61,461 bases of DNA from Thermus hydrothermalis (GTDB taxonomy: Bacteria > Deinococcota > Deinococci > Deinococcales > Thermaceae): the NCBI RefSeq assembly GCF_022760925.1, contig NZ_JAKTNT010000016.1, forward strand, positions 1-61,461, in the 5' to 3' direction. The notes below the pieces were generated by a model. It searched no databases, had not been told where the DNA came from, and saw only the letters and a list, made by a program, of their open reading frames with translations. Shown one piece after another: positions 41,451 to 46,883 of this stretch. A program made the translations under genes and the position numbers. Each line of letters opens with the position of its first letter. Position 1 is the stretch's first letter.

Positions 41451-42582
41451 CCAGCTTGAGAATCACGCTCGTCCCCTCCCCGATGCGGGTCAGGCGGGCG
41501 TCCCGCCAGTAGCGTTCCACGGGGTAGTCCTTGATGTAGCCGTAGCCCCCAAGAACCTGGATGGCCTCGTCGCAGGCCCGCACCGCCACCTCGCTGGCGA
41601 AGAGCTTGGCCTGGGCGGCCTCGAGGGCAAAGGGCCGCCCTGCATCCTTGAGGGCCGCCGCCTTGAGGTAGAGAAGCCGCGCCGCCTCCAGCTCCGTGGC
41701 CGCCTCCGCCAGCTTGAAGGAAACCCCCTCGTACTCGGCGATGGGCCGGCCGAAGGCCTCCCGCTCCTTGGCGTACCTTAGGGCGTAGTCCAAGGCGGCC
41801 CGCCCCAAACCCACGGCCATGGCGGCGATGCCAATCCGCCCCCCGTCCAGGACCCGGAGGACATCGTAAAAGCCCTTCCCCCTTTCCCCTAAAAGCCCCT
41901 CCTTGGGCACGAACAAGTCCTCCAAGAGGAGTTGCGCCGTGTCCGAGGCGTTTAGGCCGAGCTTCTCCTCCTTGCGCCCTACCCTTAGGCCCTTCTCGGG
42001 GCGGAAGAAGGCGAAGGCGGAAATGCCTAGGTGCTTCCTCTCCGGGCTTGGAGCGGGGTCGGTGCGGGCCATGACCACGTAAACCCCGGCCACGCTCCCC
42101 TGGGTGATGAACTGCTTGGTGCCGTTCAGGACAAAGCCCCCTTCCACCTCCTCCGCCCGGGTCTTCAGGGCCGCCGCATCCGAGCCCGAGCCGGGCTCGG
42201 TGAGGCCCCAGGCCCCCAAGAGCTCCCCCGAGGCCAGCTTGGGGAGGAAGGTTTCCTTCTGCCTTTCGTCCCCCGCCAGGAGGATGTGCCCGGTGGCCAA
42301 GGAGTTGTGGCTCGCCACGGTAAGGGCCAGGGAGCCATCGTAGTAGGCGATCTCCTCCACCATGCGGGCGAAGAGGCGCGTGGAAAGCCCCGCCCCCCCG
42401 TAAGCCTCGGGCACCACCGCCCCGAAGACGCCGAAGGCCGCCATCTTCCGCACCAGGTCCCAGGGGAAAGCCCCCGTGCGGTCCCTTTCCGCCGCCCCCG
42501 GGGCCACCTCCGCCTTCAAGAACTCCCGGAAAGGCCCTAGGACCTGCCGCTCCTCCCCCGTTTCCTCAAACCAGAGCTCCAT
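41419..42582 (-). CDS. Acyl-CoA dehydrogenase
   Basis: This is an FAD-dependent enzyme that introduces the alpha,beta double bond in acyl-CoA. The 387-residue chain has [15 protein letters not shown] (about 130-145, FAD contact), the [19 protein letters not shown] signature near residue 350 and the catalytic Glu in GEGTSVI. The substrate class (short-chain, branched-chain or glutaryl) is not decidable. A TATACT box lies 9 nt upstream of the ATG. No other beta-oxidation gene adjoins. Confidence 0.93.
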
Positions 42583-42591
42583 GTTGGGCCA

Positions 42592-42597
42592 AGTATA
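42592..42597 (-). promoter_or_regulatory. -10 box of the acyl-CoA dehydrogenase gene
   Basis: TATACT on the minus strand lies 9 nt before ATG 42582. The divergent kinase gene's -10 box is about 50 bases away. Confidence 0.45.
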
Positions 42598-42645
42598 TCA
42601 CTTTCTTGCGAAGTGGCAAAAAGGCGTAAGACCACGAAGGGGTGC

Positions 42646-42651
42646 TAGAGT
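42646..42651 (+). promoter_or_regulatory. -10 box of the Clp1-like kinase gene
   Basis: TAGAGT is followed by 7 nt and the GTG at 42659. This settles the start just ahead of the P-loop. Confidence 0.5.
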
Positions 42652-42658
42652 TTTCCTC

Positions 42659-43360
42659 GTGCTCCTCCTCTTGGGCCCCACGGACGTGGGCAAGACCACC
42701 CTGGCCCATAGGCTCCTAGAGAAGCTCAAGGAGGCCTATCTCCTGGACCTGGACCCGGGGCAAGGGGCCTTGCCGGGCACCTTCACCCTCTTCCGCTACC
42801 GGGAAGGCGCCCTCACCCCGGTGCGCCGCTACCTCCTGGGGGCCACCTCCCCCGCCGGGCTCACGGCCCGGGCGGTGGTGGGGGCCTTACGCCTAGCCCG
42901 CCTCATCCCGAGGGGGAGCCCGGCGGTGGCGGACACGGACGGCCTTTTGGACCCGGAGTTCCGCCTCCTTCAGGCGGAGGCCTTGAGCCCGGCGGAGATC
43001 CTCATCCTGGGTTCGGAGGCGCTTTTCCAAGCCTTCGCCTGGCGCCGGGACCTCAAGGCGCGCCCCGTGCCCCCCTTGCCCGAGGCCAGGCGGAAAAGCC
43101 CTAAGTTGCGGCGGCAAAACCGCCTGGAGCGCCTCCTTGCCCACTTCCAGGAGGCGAGGCCCAGGGTCCTCCCCCTTTCCCATCCCCCGGAGCCGGAAAG
43201 GCTTTACGGCCTCCTGGACCCCGAGGGGTTTTTCCTGGGCTATGGGCGGCTTCTGGCCTACGCCCCGGGCGAAGGGCTCTTCCTTACCCCCGCCCAGGGC
43301 GAGGTGGCCCAGGTGGTGCCCACCCGGCTAAGCCTTTCCCTCAGCGCACTACCAGGTTGA
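42659..43360 (+). CDS. Clp1/Grc3-like polynucleotide 5'-kinase
   Basis: The 233-residue protein starts almost directly with the P-loop GPTDVGKTT (6-14), whose Asp at position 9 is typical of the Clp1/Grc3 polynucleotide kinase family. [16 protein letters not shown] segment (about 31-45) and a Walker-B-like [10 protein letters not shown] (about 95-105) follow. Family members phosphorylate 5'-OH ends of RNA or DNA. I recall, without being able to check, a report of an active Clp1-type kinase from Thermus scotoductus. GTG 42659 was chosen from its -10 box. It converges on leuS with a 20-bp overlap. Confidence 0.78.
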
Positions 43361-45974
43361 GGATCCTCCCCGGCACGTAGATCTCCTTCACCACCTGCTT
43401 GCCCTCCAGGTGGGCCTGGACGTTGGGGACCTTCTTGGCCTCCGCCAGGGCCATCTCCAGGGGGGCGTCCTTGGGGATCCGGATGGTGCCCCGCACCCTG
43501 CCGTTCACCTGCACCGCCACCTCCACCACGTCCTTCTCCAAGGCGCTTTCGTCCAGCTCGGGCCAGCCCGCCTCAAAGAGGCTATCGGGCCAGAAGCGGT
43601 GCCAAAGCTCCTCGGCGATGTGGGGGGCGAAGGGGAAGAGCATCTGCAGGTAGTAGCGGATGGCGGTGCGGTAGACCGGGGTCACGGGCCGCTTGCGGCG
43701 GTACTCGTAAAGGGCGTTGAGGAACTCCATGAGGGCGGCGATAGCGGTGTTGAAGCGAAGGGCCTCGAGGTCCTGCGTCACCTTCTTCAGGGTTTCGTGG
43801 AGCTTCCCGTAAAGCGCCTTGTCCTCCCCCTCCAGGTCCTCCTTCTGGAACTTCCCCGTGGTATGGAGAAGGGCCTCCTGGTCCTCCACCACCCGCCGCC
43901 ACACCCGGTTCAGGAAGCGCCAGGCCCCCTGCACCCCCTCCTCGGTCCAGACCATCTCGTTCTCGGGCGGGGCGGCGAAGAGGATGGTGATGCGGGCGAT
44001 GTCCGCCCCCTCCTCCTTCACGAAGGGCCCCACCATGACCCCGTTGCCCTTGGACTTGCTCATCACCGCGGGCTTCCAGAGGTGGAGGGTGCCGTCCTCG
44101 TGGGGCCTGAGCTCGGCCCCCATCTTCCTCACGTCCTCCAGGGAAAGCTCGTTTTCCCCAATCTCCAGCTGGATGCGGGTGGGCTCGGGGAGGCGCACCC
44201 GCTCCCCCTCCACCTCCACGGGCCCGAAGTCTGTCCAGGCCATGACCATGCCCTGGGTGAAGAGGCCCTGGAAGGGCTCCTCCACCCCCACCATGCCCAG
44301 GTCATGGAGGAACTTGGTGAAGAAGCGGCTGTAGAGAAGGTGCAAAACGGCGTGCTCCACCCCGCCGATGTACTGGTCCACCGGCATCCAGAAATCCGCC
44401 TTCTCCCGGGCGAAGGGGAGGCGCTCGTTCTTGGGGTCGGTGTAGCGGAGGTAGTACCAGGAGCTGTCAAAGAAGGTGTCCATGGTGTCGGTGTCCCGCT
44501 TGGCGGGGCCGCCGCACTTGGGGCAGGAGGTCTCGTAGAACTCGGGGTGGGCCTCCAAGGGGCTTTTCCCCTTGGGGCGGATGTCCTCCACGTCCTTGAG
44601 GTCGGGGAGGAGGACGGGAAGCTCCTCCTCGGGCACCGGCACCACGCCGCAGGTGGGGCAGTGGACCATGGGGATGGGGGTGCCCCAGTAGCGCTGGCGG
44701 CTGATGAGCCAGTCCCGCAGGCGGTAGGTGATGCGGGCCCTACCCAGGCCCTTTTCCTCCAGCCAGGCGATGACCTTCCGCTTGCCCTCCTCGCTTTCCG
44801 TGCCGTCAAAGGGGCCGGAGTTCACCATGATGCCCGGCTCCTCGTAGGCCCCCTCCAGGGGCTCGGGAAGGGGCTCGCCGGGGCGTTCAATCACCTTCCT
44901 GATGGGGAGGCCGTACTTTTTGGCGAACTCGTAGTCCCGGCTGTCGTGGGCGGGCACGGCCATGATGGCCCCGGTGCCGTAGCCGTAGAGCACGTAGTCG
45001 GCGGTCCAGATGGGGATCCGCTCCCCAGTGGCGGGGTTTAGGGCATAGGCCCCCAGGAAAACCCCCGTCTTCTCCCGCCCTTCCGCCTGGCGCTCAATCT
45101 CCGTCTTGCGCTTGGCCGCCTCCACGTAGGCCAAGACCTCCTCCCGGCGCTCGGGGGCGGCGAGCTCCAGGGCCAAGGGGTGCTCGGGGGCCAGGACCAT
45201 GAAGGTGGCCCCGAAAAGAGTGTCGGGGCGGGTGGTGAAGACGGTGATCCTCTCCTCCCGGCCCTCCACGGGGAAGTGGATCTCCGCCCCTTCCGAGCGG
45301 CCGATCCAGGCCCGTTGCATGGCCTTCACCTTCTCGGGCCAGTCCAGGCCCTCGAGGTCCCGAAGGAGCCGGTCGGCGTAGGCGGTGATGCGCAGGTACC
45401 ACTGCTCCAGCTCCCGCTTCTCCACCAAGGTGTCCTCGTGCCGCCAGCAACGCCCCTCCACCACCTGCTCGTTGGCGAGAACCGTCTGGCACTTGGGGCA
45501 CCAGTTCACGAGGCCCTTGGCCCGGTAGGCCAGGCCCTTCTCCCACATCTTGATGAAGATCCACTGGTTCCAGCGGTAGTAGTCGGGCTCGCAGGTGGTC
45601 ACCTCCCGGTCCCAGTCGTAGAGGATGCCCATGAGCTCCAGGCTTTCCTTGGCCTGGCGGATGTTCTGGTAGGTCCAGTCCCGGGGGTGGACGCCGAACT
45701 TCAAGGCGGCGTTCTCCGCCGGCAGGCCGAAGGCGTCCCAGCCCATGGGGTGGAGGACCTCGTAGCCCTGCACCCGGCGGAAGCGGGCGAGGACGTCCCC
45801 CATGGTGTAGTTCTTCAGGTGGCCCATGTGCAGGTCCCCGGAGGGGTAGGGGAACATGACGAGGACGTACTGCTTGCCCCGCTTCCCCGGCACCTCCTTG
45901 GCCTTCATGAAGCCCTTCTCTTTCCAGAAGCGTTGCCACTTGGGCTCTATGGCGTGGGGGTTGTACTTCTCCAT
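43341..45974 (-). CDS. leuS: Leucyl-tRNA synthetase
   Basis: This class I synthetase charges tRNA-Leu. It has 877 residues, with the HIGH-type motif HMGH at 49-52, a large CP1 editing insertion, and MSKSKGN at about 638-644. Zinc-type CPTC/CPKC pairs are visible in inserts (WCPKC, HCPTCG, CPKCGG). ATG 45974 has GAGGAGG upstream. The long open frame further upstream covers the leader described separately and was not taken as coding. Expression is probably set by the attenuator just upstream. Confidence 0.96.
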
Positions 45975-45986
45975 CTTCGCCTCCTC

Positions 45987-46014
45987 AAAAAAACCCTTCC
46001 CCCGCAGGGAAGGG
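45987..46014 (-). terminator. Intrinsic terminator inside the leuS leader
   Basis: Read on the minus strand, CCCTTCCC (46014-46007), a 5-nt loop and GGGAAGGG (46001-45994) form a perfect stem followed by seven U. It ends 13 bases before the leuS ATG, so it would stop transcription before the gene. The 5' arm can pair instead with an upstream segment. Confidence 0.85.
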
Positions 46015-46033
46015 ACGGCCAGGCCCCTTCCCT

Positions 46034-46060
46034 TTAGGGGGCTAGCCTGGCCGGACGCAT
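46034..46060 (-). CDS. Leader peptide of the leuS attenuator (8 residues)
   Basis: ATG CGT CCG GCC AGG CTA GCC CCC TAA encodes MRPARLAP. The ATG lies 6 nt after a TAGGAT -10 box, as in other leaderless genes here. Codon 6 is CTA, an uncommon leucine codon in this GC-rich genome. A ribosome waiting at CTA would cover segment 1 and leave segment 2 free for antitermination; one reaching the stop would cover segment 2 and let the terminator form. Expression of the peptide is predicted only. Confidence 0.6.
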
Positions 46061-46100
46061 GAGTCCATCCTACCCCTTTTTGCACCTTGGAGAAAAGGCG

Positions 46101-46883
46101 CTAGTCCTCGAGGGCCCGGGCCACCAAGGCCCCCAGGAGGAGGGAGAGGAGGACCAGGTAAAGCCCGAGGAGGGCCAGGACGAACCCCGCCAGGGGCCCG
46201 TAGAGGAGCTCGTACTGGGAGCGGGGAAGGAGCTTGGGAAGCCCAAGCCGCACCCCCTCAAAGAGGAGGGCCGCCATCCCGGCCCCGGCGCTTAAGGGGA
46301 GGAGGTCCCGTAGCCCCCGAACCCCGCGGAAAAAGGCGTAGGTGAGGAGGAAGAGGAAGAAGGCGGAAAAGAGGGGCAGAAGGACCTCCAAAGGCCCAAG
46401 AAGGCCCCGCCAAGCCGGGGGCAGGTAGCGGAGGATAAAGCCCAGGGCCAGACCCAGGAGGGAGAGGAGGATGAGGGCGAGGCCCAGGAGAAAAGGCATG
46501 AAAAGCCCTAAAAGCCGGTGGCGCACCCCGGGGGGGCGGCCGAAGACGAGGCCCAAGGCGTAGCTAAGGGCGGCGAAGAAGTTGCTCCCGGACCAGAGGA
46601 AGAGGAGGCCGCTTCCCAGGGTGAGGGGAAAGGCGCTTTGCGAAAGGAAGCGGAGGAGGTCCTCTGCGAGTTCGGGCCGGGCGGGGAAAAGGGCCAGGGT
46701 GAGCCCCCCTAAGGCCTCCTGGAGCTCCTTTTGCCAAAGGGGGTTTCCCGCCAGCAGGAGGCCGAAAACCCCCACCAAGAGGAAAAGAAGGGGCATGAGG
46801 GAGAGAAGGGCGTAGTAGGCGAGGGCGGCGGCGAAGAAGGGAACGTGGGCCTCGGTGTAAAGGTCAAAAACCCTTCGCAGCAA
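46101..46883 (-). CDS. YihY/BrkB-family inner-membrane protein
   Basis: This is a 260-residue integral membrane protein with about six hydrophobic helices, of the YihY (UPF0761) family once misnamed ribonuclease BN. The conserved N-terminal pattern FFAAALAYYALLSLMPLLFLL is split around residue 25, and the GSNFFAALSYALGLVFGR region lies mid-protein. The molecular function is unknown. The start is TTG, 3 bases after the proA stop with a GAGGAAG site inside proA, so it is the third gene of proB-proA-yihY. Confidence 0.88.
   Translation of the reverse strand: MLRRVFDLYTEAHVPFFAAALAYYALLSLMPLLFLLVGVFGLLLAGNPLWQKELQEALGGLTLALFPARPELAEDLLRFLSQSAFPLTLGSGLLFLWSGSNFFAALSYALGLVFGRPPGVRHRLLGLFMPFLLGLALILLSLLGLALGFILRYLPPAWRGLLGPLEVLLPLFSAFFLFLLTYAFFRGVRGLRDLLPLSAGAGMAALLFEGVRLGLPKLLPRSQYELLYGPLAGFVLALLGLYLVLLSLLLGALVARALED

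Follow-up and report, generated by a model that had tools for sequence, protein, structure and literature searches.

The locus described here raises the question of how the expression of leuS might be controlled by the leader RNA of about 75 bases that lies 5' of it, within a window of 61,461 nucleotides (the whole stretch of DNA that was analyzed). Read on the minus strand of this window, the leader runs TAGGAT-GGACTC-ORF-GGGAAGGGGCCTGGCC-CCCTTCCC-GGGAAGGG-T7-GAGGAGG-leuS (Table 1); the letters and coordinates that a sequence-only reading of this DNA had given for it all hold to the base. The encoded LeuS protein is 100% identical to that of T. brockianus YIM 77927. A consensus -35 element was looked for upstream of TAGGAT at this locus and no match was found, and the sequence predicts a transcription start at 46060, which would make the leader ORF leaderless. 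As in an attenuator, an intrinsic terminator separates the leader ORF from leuS, and its hairpin (46014-45994) was the top match of a terminator scan. The three pairings proposed from the sequence (1:2, 2:3 and 3:4) are all present here; of these, the 1:2 stem turned out to be lost in the T. parvatiensis-like clade. We also observed a GTG at 46085 (minus strand) in the leuS frame, which would add 37 codons across the attenuator and could mislead gene callers on the start of leuS.

Table 1. Features of the leuS leader and of its neighbors in the window.
Feature	Position	Strand	Evidence or remark
BrkB/YihY-family membrane protein gene	46101-46883	-	next gene 5' of the leader; found there in most Thermus, but not in L014, L020, L058
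-10 promoter element TAGGAT	46067..46072	-	sequence; 6 nt 5' of leader ATG
Spacer GGACTC between TAGGAT and leader ATG		-	sequence
Leader ORF ATG CGT CCG GCC AGG CTA GCC CCC TAA (MRPARLAP, 8 codons)	46034..46060	-	sequence; reading frame with its start and stop retained in 28/28
Leader start codon ATG	46060-46058	-	sequence
Segment 1, GGCCAGG	46046..46052	-	pairs with CCTGGCC of segment 2
Regulatory leucine codon CTA, the only one in the leader ORF	46043..46045	-	invariant in 53/53 leaders
Segment 2, GGGAAGGGGCCTGGCC	46017..46032	-	partner of segment 1, or of segment 3 (antiterminator)
Segment 3, CCCTTCCC	46007..46014	-	3' arm of antiterminator or 5' arm of terminator
Segment 4, GGGAAGGG	45994..46001	-	3' arm of intrinsic terminator
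U7 run of intrinsic terminator	45987..45993	-	T-run kept in all aligned Thermus sequences
leuS Shine-Dalgarno GAGGAGG	45980..45986	-	adjoins U-run; small changes only in aligned Thermus-type leaders
leuS, leucyl-tRNA synthetase	43341..45974	-	Pfam leucyl-specific and editing domains; ATG at 45974

We hold with high confidence that this leader attenuates the transcription of leuS under ribosome control, on an mRNA that starts at the AUG, and leaderless ribosome-controlled attenuation is very likely its mechanism. The analysis shows the anatomy of the leader, its conservation, its codon specificity and its alternative pairing; we infer its transcription start, translation, stalling, termination and response to leucine, as follows. 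A 70S ribosome would load on the 5' AUG and translate the eight codons. With charged Leu-tRNA(UAG) available, it would pass CUA, reach the stop codon and cover segment 2, upon which the 3:4 terminator would form and leuS would be off. With Leu-tRNA(UAG) in short supply, the ribosome would wait at CUA and cover segment 1; segment 2 would then be available to segment 3, the terminator would fail to form, and leuS would be transcribed. The distances are compatible with this scheme: with CTA in the A site (nt 16-18), the ribosome would extend to about nt 28-30 and leave GGGAAGGG at nt 29-36 largely free, and with the stop codon (nt 25-27) in its place it would cover this stretch. If the leader were left untranslated, in most Thermus the 1:2 stem would form and lead to termination; in the T. 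parvatiensis-like clade and, according to our model, in many other genera, it would read through because this protector is missing.

Taken as a single sequence, the fold of the leader is not exceptional when compared with shuffled sequences and is suggestive only (z-scores of -1.6 for the whole leader and -2.25 for the 2:3 region), and relatives were therefore needed. We gathered leuS and its upstream region from 50 genomes of Thermaceae. In Thermus and its sister genus, all 28 loci carry TANNNT exactly 6 nt before the start codon (ATG or GTG) of an ORF of 7 or 8 codons that includes CTA, and then a stop codon, a hairpin and a T-run. Close relatives thus retain the leader frame, whose loss would have refuted the sequence-only reading, as well as the CTA and the distance between promoter and start. 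When 60 dinucleotide shuffles per locus were searched, the architecture was found at a frequency of about 0, and we regard this comparison, 28/28 loci against nearly none in shuffles, together with the single convincing match in 858 kb of the same genome, as decisive evidence that the observed arrangement is real. Around these fixed elements the sequence varies: the six spacer bases between the -10 element and the start are freely variable, as are the codons flanking the stem, and codon 7 can be GCC, ACC, AAC, ATC, CAC, TGC or GTC with CTA constant. The most diverged leaders are those of two T. parvatiensis-like loci (L020 and L058, from genomes G048 and G038), which read GTG CGC GCG TCC CTA CGT CCC TAG (7 codons) and have a new terminator and no 1:2 stem, with CTA and the 6-nt spacing retained; according to the model, these two leaders may read through when untranslated.

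The sequence-only reading had further proposed that compensatory changes be sought in the three stems. When 25 distinct Thermus-type leaders were aligned, pairing was kept in 94.8% (1:2), 98.0% (2:3) and 93.0% (3:4) of the aligned cells. Compensatory changes within Thermus are almost absent and too few to prove the stems, which there rest on conservation. Between genera, the 2:3 pairing is found with different letters (GGGAAGGGG/CCCTTCCC in Thermus, GGGGAGC/GCTCCCC in another genus of Thermaceae and GGGGAAGCC/GGCTTCCCC in family f4), which, as far as sequences can tell, replaces the covariation missing within Thermus. We additionally compared the duplex of segments 2 and 3 with shuffled sequences in 25 representatives of five families; individual p values ranged from 0.001 to 0.95 and gave a Fisher combined p of about 1e-12, from representatives that are not fully independent. 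The test is weak in the T. parvatiensis-like clade; across the relatives as a whole, the 2:3 complementarity, whose loss would have spoken against attenuation, is retained.

Equilibrium folding that includes segment 4 often favors the terminator in every state (at this locus, 0.93 at 37 C even in the stalled state), so that the switch has to work kinetically: the 2:3 duplex must arise ahead of the synthesis of segment 4. We therefore adopted a co-transcriptional model of the transcript at 65 C, prior to segment 4, in which the ribosome was placed on CTA, placed on the stop codon or left out. Setting aside the T. parvatiensis-like L020 and L058, the model predicts for every Thermus-type leader that segment 3 is sequestered at 0.86-0.99 with the ribosome at CTA and at 0.02-0.35 with the ribosome at the stop codon; without a ribosome, it is bound by upstream RNA mostly at 0.01-0.4, with one locus at 0.68. 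Over all leaders, the modeled sequestration is higher in the stalled state than at the stop codon in 57 of 58. The geometry proposed from the sequence is reproduced in the model, with the predicted state obtained for each of the three ribosome positions. In silico, antiterminator and terminator exclude each other: a ribosome on CTA releases the antiterminator, and one that has reached the stop codon prevents it. This behavior is weak for the T. parvatiensis-like leaders, as it is for several distant relatives taken singly, where the antiterminator is often no better than in shuffled sequences in the model without segment 4; for these single genomes, strength comes solely from pooling them in the duplex test. 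The protector hairpin 1:2 is present here and in most Thermus and absent in L020 and L058, and inspection by eye found no conserved pause site 3' of it.

Considering that the BrkB/YihY-family gene upstream lies on the same strand and ends at 46101, and that the hairpin makes a good terminator, the hairpin could instead be the intrinsic terminator of that gene, with the promoter of leuS elsewhere. We consider this very improbable. The U-run abuts the Shine-Dalgarno sequence of leuS and leaves no room for a promoter in between; a promoter, a CTA-containing ORF and an alternative 2:3 pairing all precede the terminator in 28/28 relatives; and the leader stays with leuS where the upstream gene is a different one. 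In L020 and L058, moreover, an additional hairpin with a short T-run lies 5' of the leader.

Further evidence for attenuation comes from the codon itself. In a leader search that fixed the gap between -10 element and start at 6 nt and did not use CTA as a criterion, 53 of the 53 leaders recovered contained CTA, so that the single leucine codon CTA noted in the leader from the sequence proved to be conserved across relatives, and it matches the amino acid of the downstream gene in all of them, as is expected of an attenuator. In the 24 non-Thermus leaders, CTA accounts for 41/51 leucine codons. The corresponding counts for genes are 9/3556 for Thermus leuS and 30/6353 for a set of 193 likely genes from this genome, or 0.25-0.47% of their leucine codons. 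Counted on genome stretches picked from a tRNA search, the tRNA-Leu genes comprise one with anticodon UAG, which reads CUA, plus single genes for UAA, CAA, GAG and CAG. An alternative sensor would be the nascent peptide, stalling the ribosome on a small molecule (for example, through ARLxP-stop) independently of CUA and the charging of tRNA-Leu, and the A-R-L-x-P core is indeed present in nearly all Thermus leader peptides. The A and R codons, however, lie within stem 1 and the P codon within CCCC, so that RNA pairing explains the conservation of these residues. Besides, the peptides of other genera differ (MRFVKRLALT, MQWFIHLELP, MIWAGLART), with no residue in common but Leu encoded as CTA, and peptide sensing would not select a rare synonymous codon. 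We therefore give peptide sensing very little chance; since the peptides otherwise differ while CTA stays, the comparison of sequences indicates that the codon is the conserved unit and the peptide is not.

Beyond Thermus, we searched 111 genomes of the phylum, sampled at the level of order, class and phylum and comprising genera other than Deinococcus itself, for a -10 element, a start codon, an ORF of 6-25 codons with CTA and a terminator, allowing a gap of 5-8 nt between -10 element and start. In addition to the 28/28 loci described above, this architecture was found at 17/21 loci of other Thermaceae and at 7/11 of a second family, and more sparsely in three further families (8/28), compared with about 0 in 60 dinucleotide shuffles per locus; it is seldom found when any other codon takes the place of CTA. 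Leader peptides include MRFVKRLALT and MQWFIHLELP in other Thermaceae, MIWAGLART and MTRTGLPPA in family f4, MPVATNLLQLGGPRR and MKIKHTQRLLLAEGPGH in family f5, and MIASALENRGDRD and MIRSGLLSLGALLG in families f2 and f3. Judged by these sequences, the same design, written in different letters, appears to extend across much of the Deinococcus-Thermus class. Within the regions searched, the leader was absent or only partial at L038, L040, L047, L052, four f4 loci and many f5 loci. Apparent loss of the CTA leader upstream of leuS was observed at L038, L040, L140, L141, L143 and L149, several of which have a TANNNT-type box near leuS instead. Control of leuS without a ribosome, with LeuRS, a different protein or (in the manner of a T-box) uncharged tRNA binding to the leader, has a general precedent in the T-boxes and autogenous binding that regulate other aminoacyl-tRNA synthetase genes in other phyla, and is the least probable explanation, being extremely unlikely: from genus to genus the leader RNA changes in sequence but keeps the ORF, CTA and spacing, and Rfam covariance models found no family at gathering score in the whole window.

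The attenuator proposed for leuS resembles the leu attenuator of Salmonella and E. coli in its CUA control codon, its three alternative pairings and its control by the ribosome; the enteric leader, in contrast, controls biosynthesis, is longer, and has several CUA codons and a Shine-Dalgarno sequence. The role of CUA in the enteric leader is quoted in the literature (PMC1183508), where theory makes CUA the best leucine control codon and predicts weak sensitivity when control codons are few; with its single control codon, the leader described here is therefore expected to give a graded rather than a switch-like response. Closer in kind are the leuS leaders of Streptomyces, which likewise regulate leuS through a leaderless short ORF with leucine codons and a hairpin and U-run downstream: S. 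lividans has the leaderless attenuator leuL2 with peptide MRAVRLLLSEPR (PMC8079986), and leuS attenuators have been predicted in S. coelicolor and S. avermitilis (PMC1262725). LeuL2 belongs to another phylum and has 12 residues with three leucines, as opposed to 8 residues with one CUA. Leaderless genes with an adjacent -10 element are common in Deinococcus-Thermus (PMC12340547) and share with our leader a -10 hexamer that lies a few bases 5' of the start codon and the lack of a Shine-Dalgarno sequence, but those described are protein genes; leader peptides, attenuation and leuS were searched for in the text of that paper and not found. The sequence-only reading knew of no such attenuator for a Thermus leuS, and a full-text search of the literature for Thermus or Deinococcus with leader peptide or attenuation, which left subscription papers mostly outside, likewise found no description of the case, although a 2010 survey (doi 10.1134/S0026893310010164) may list it. 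Leaderless leuS attenuators as such are known from Streptomyces; it is the class-wide presence and the minimal one-codon form that seem to be undescribed. On balance, we think that this is probably an ancient attenuator, dedicated to leuS in most searchable families of Deinococcota and so far undescribed, which would be among the smallest ribosome sensors (leaderless, with 7-8 codons in Thermus and a single CUA that senses only tRNA-Leu(UAG)), and in which the RNA sequence has been replaced and the logic of codon, spacing and pairing kept.

Such an attenuator would give the Deinococcus-Thermus phylum a specific, testable form of control for an aminoacyl-tRNA synthetase gene. It would also be a minimal example from nature for the theory by which control codons belong to the isoacceptor that reacts most sensitively to starvation: this leader uses CUA as the enteric leu leaders do, though CUA makes up <0.5% of the leucine codons found in genes. 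A further question that it raises is how 70S loading on a 5' AUG can be fast enough to steer a polymerase about 75 nt from the start. Thermus ribosomes and RNA polymerase are common in structure work, so that reconstituting the coupled complex in vitro is feasible.

Scanning both strands of 858 kb of the same genome, which included the genes of three LeuS-related synthetases, for this attenuator design only (a leaderless short ORF followed by a terminator) returned the present leader and two unconvincing matches. At L180 17283 (plus strand), just before an apparent tryptophan synthase beta gene, we observed a weak candidate, namely a leaderless short ORF that contains one CTA and is accompanied by a poor terminator-like hairpin; it is probably due to chance. 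Convergent to leuS, positions 42476-43360 of the window (plus strand) encode a CLP1/Grc3-like polynucleotide kinase domain (Pfam CLP1_P, E 4e-13).
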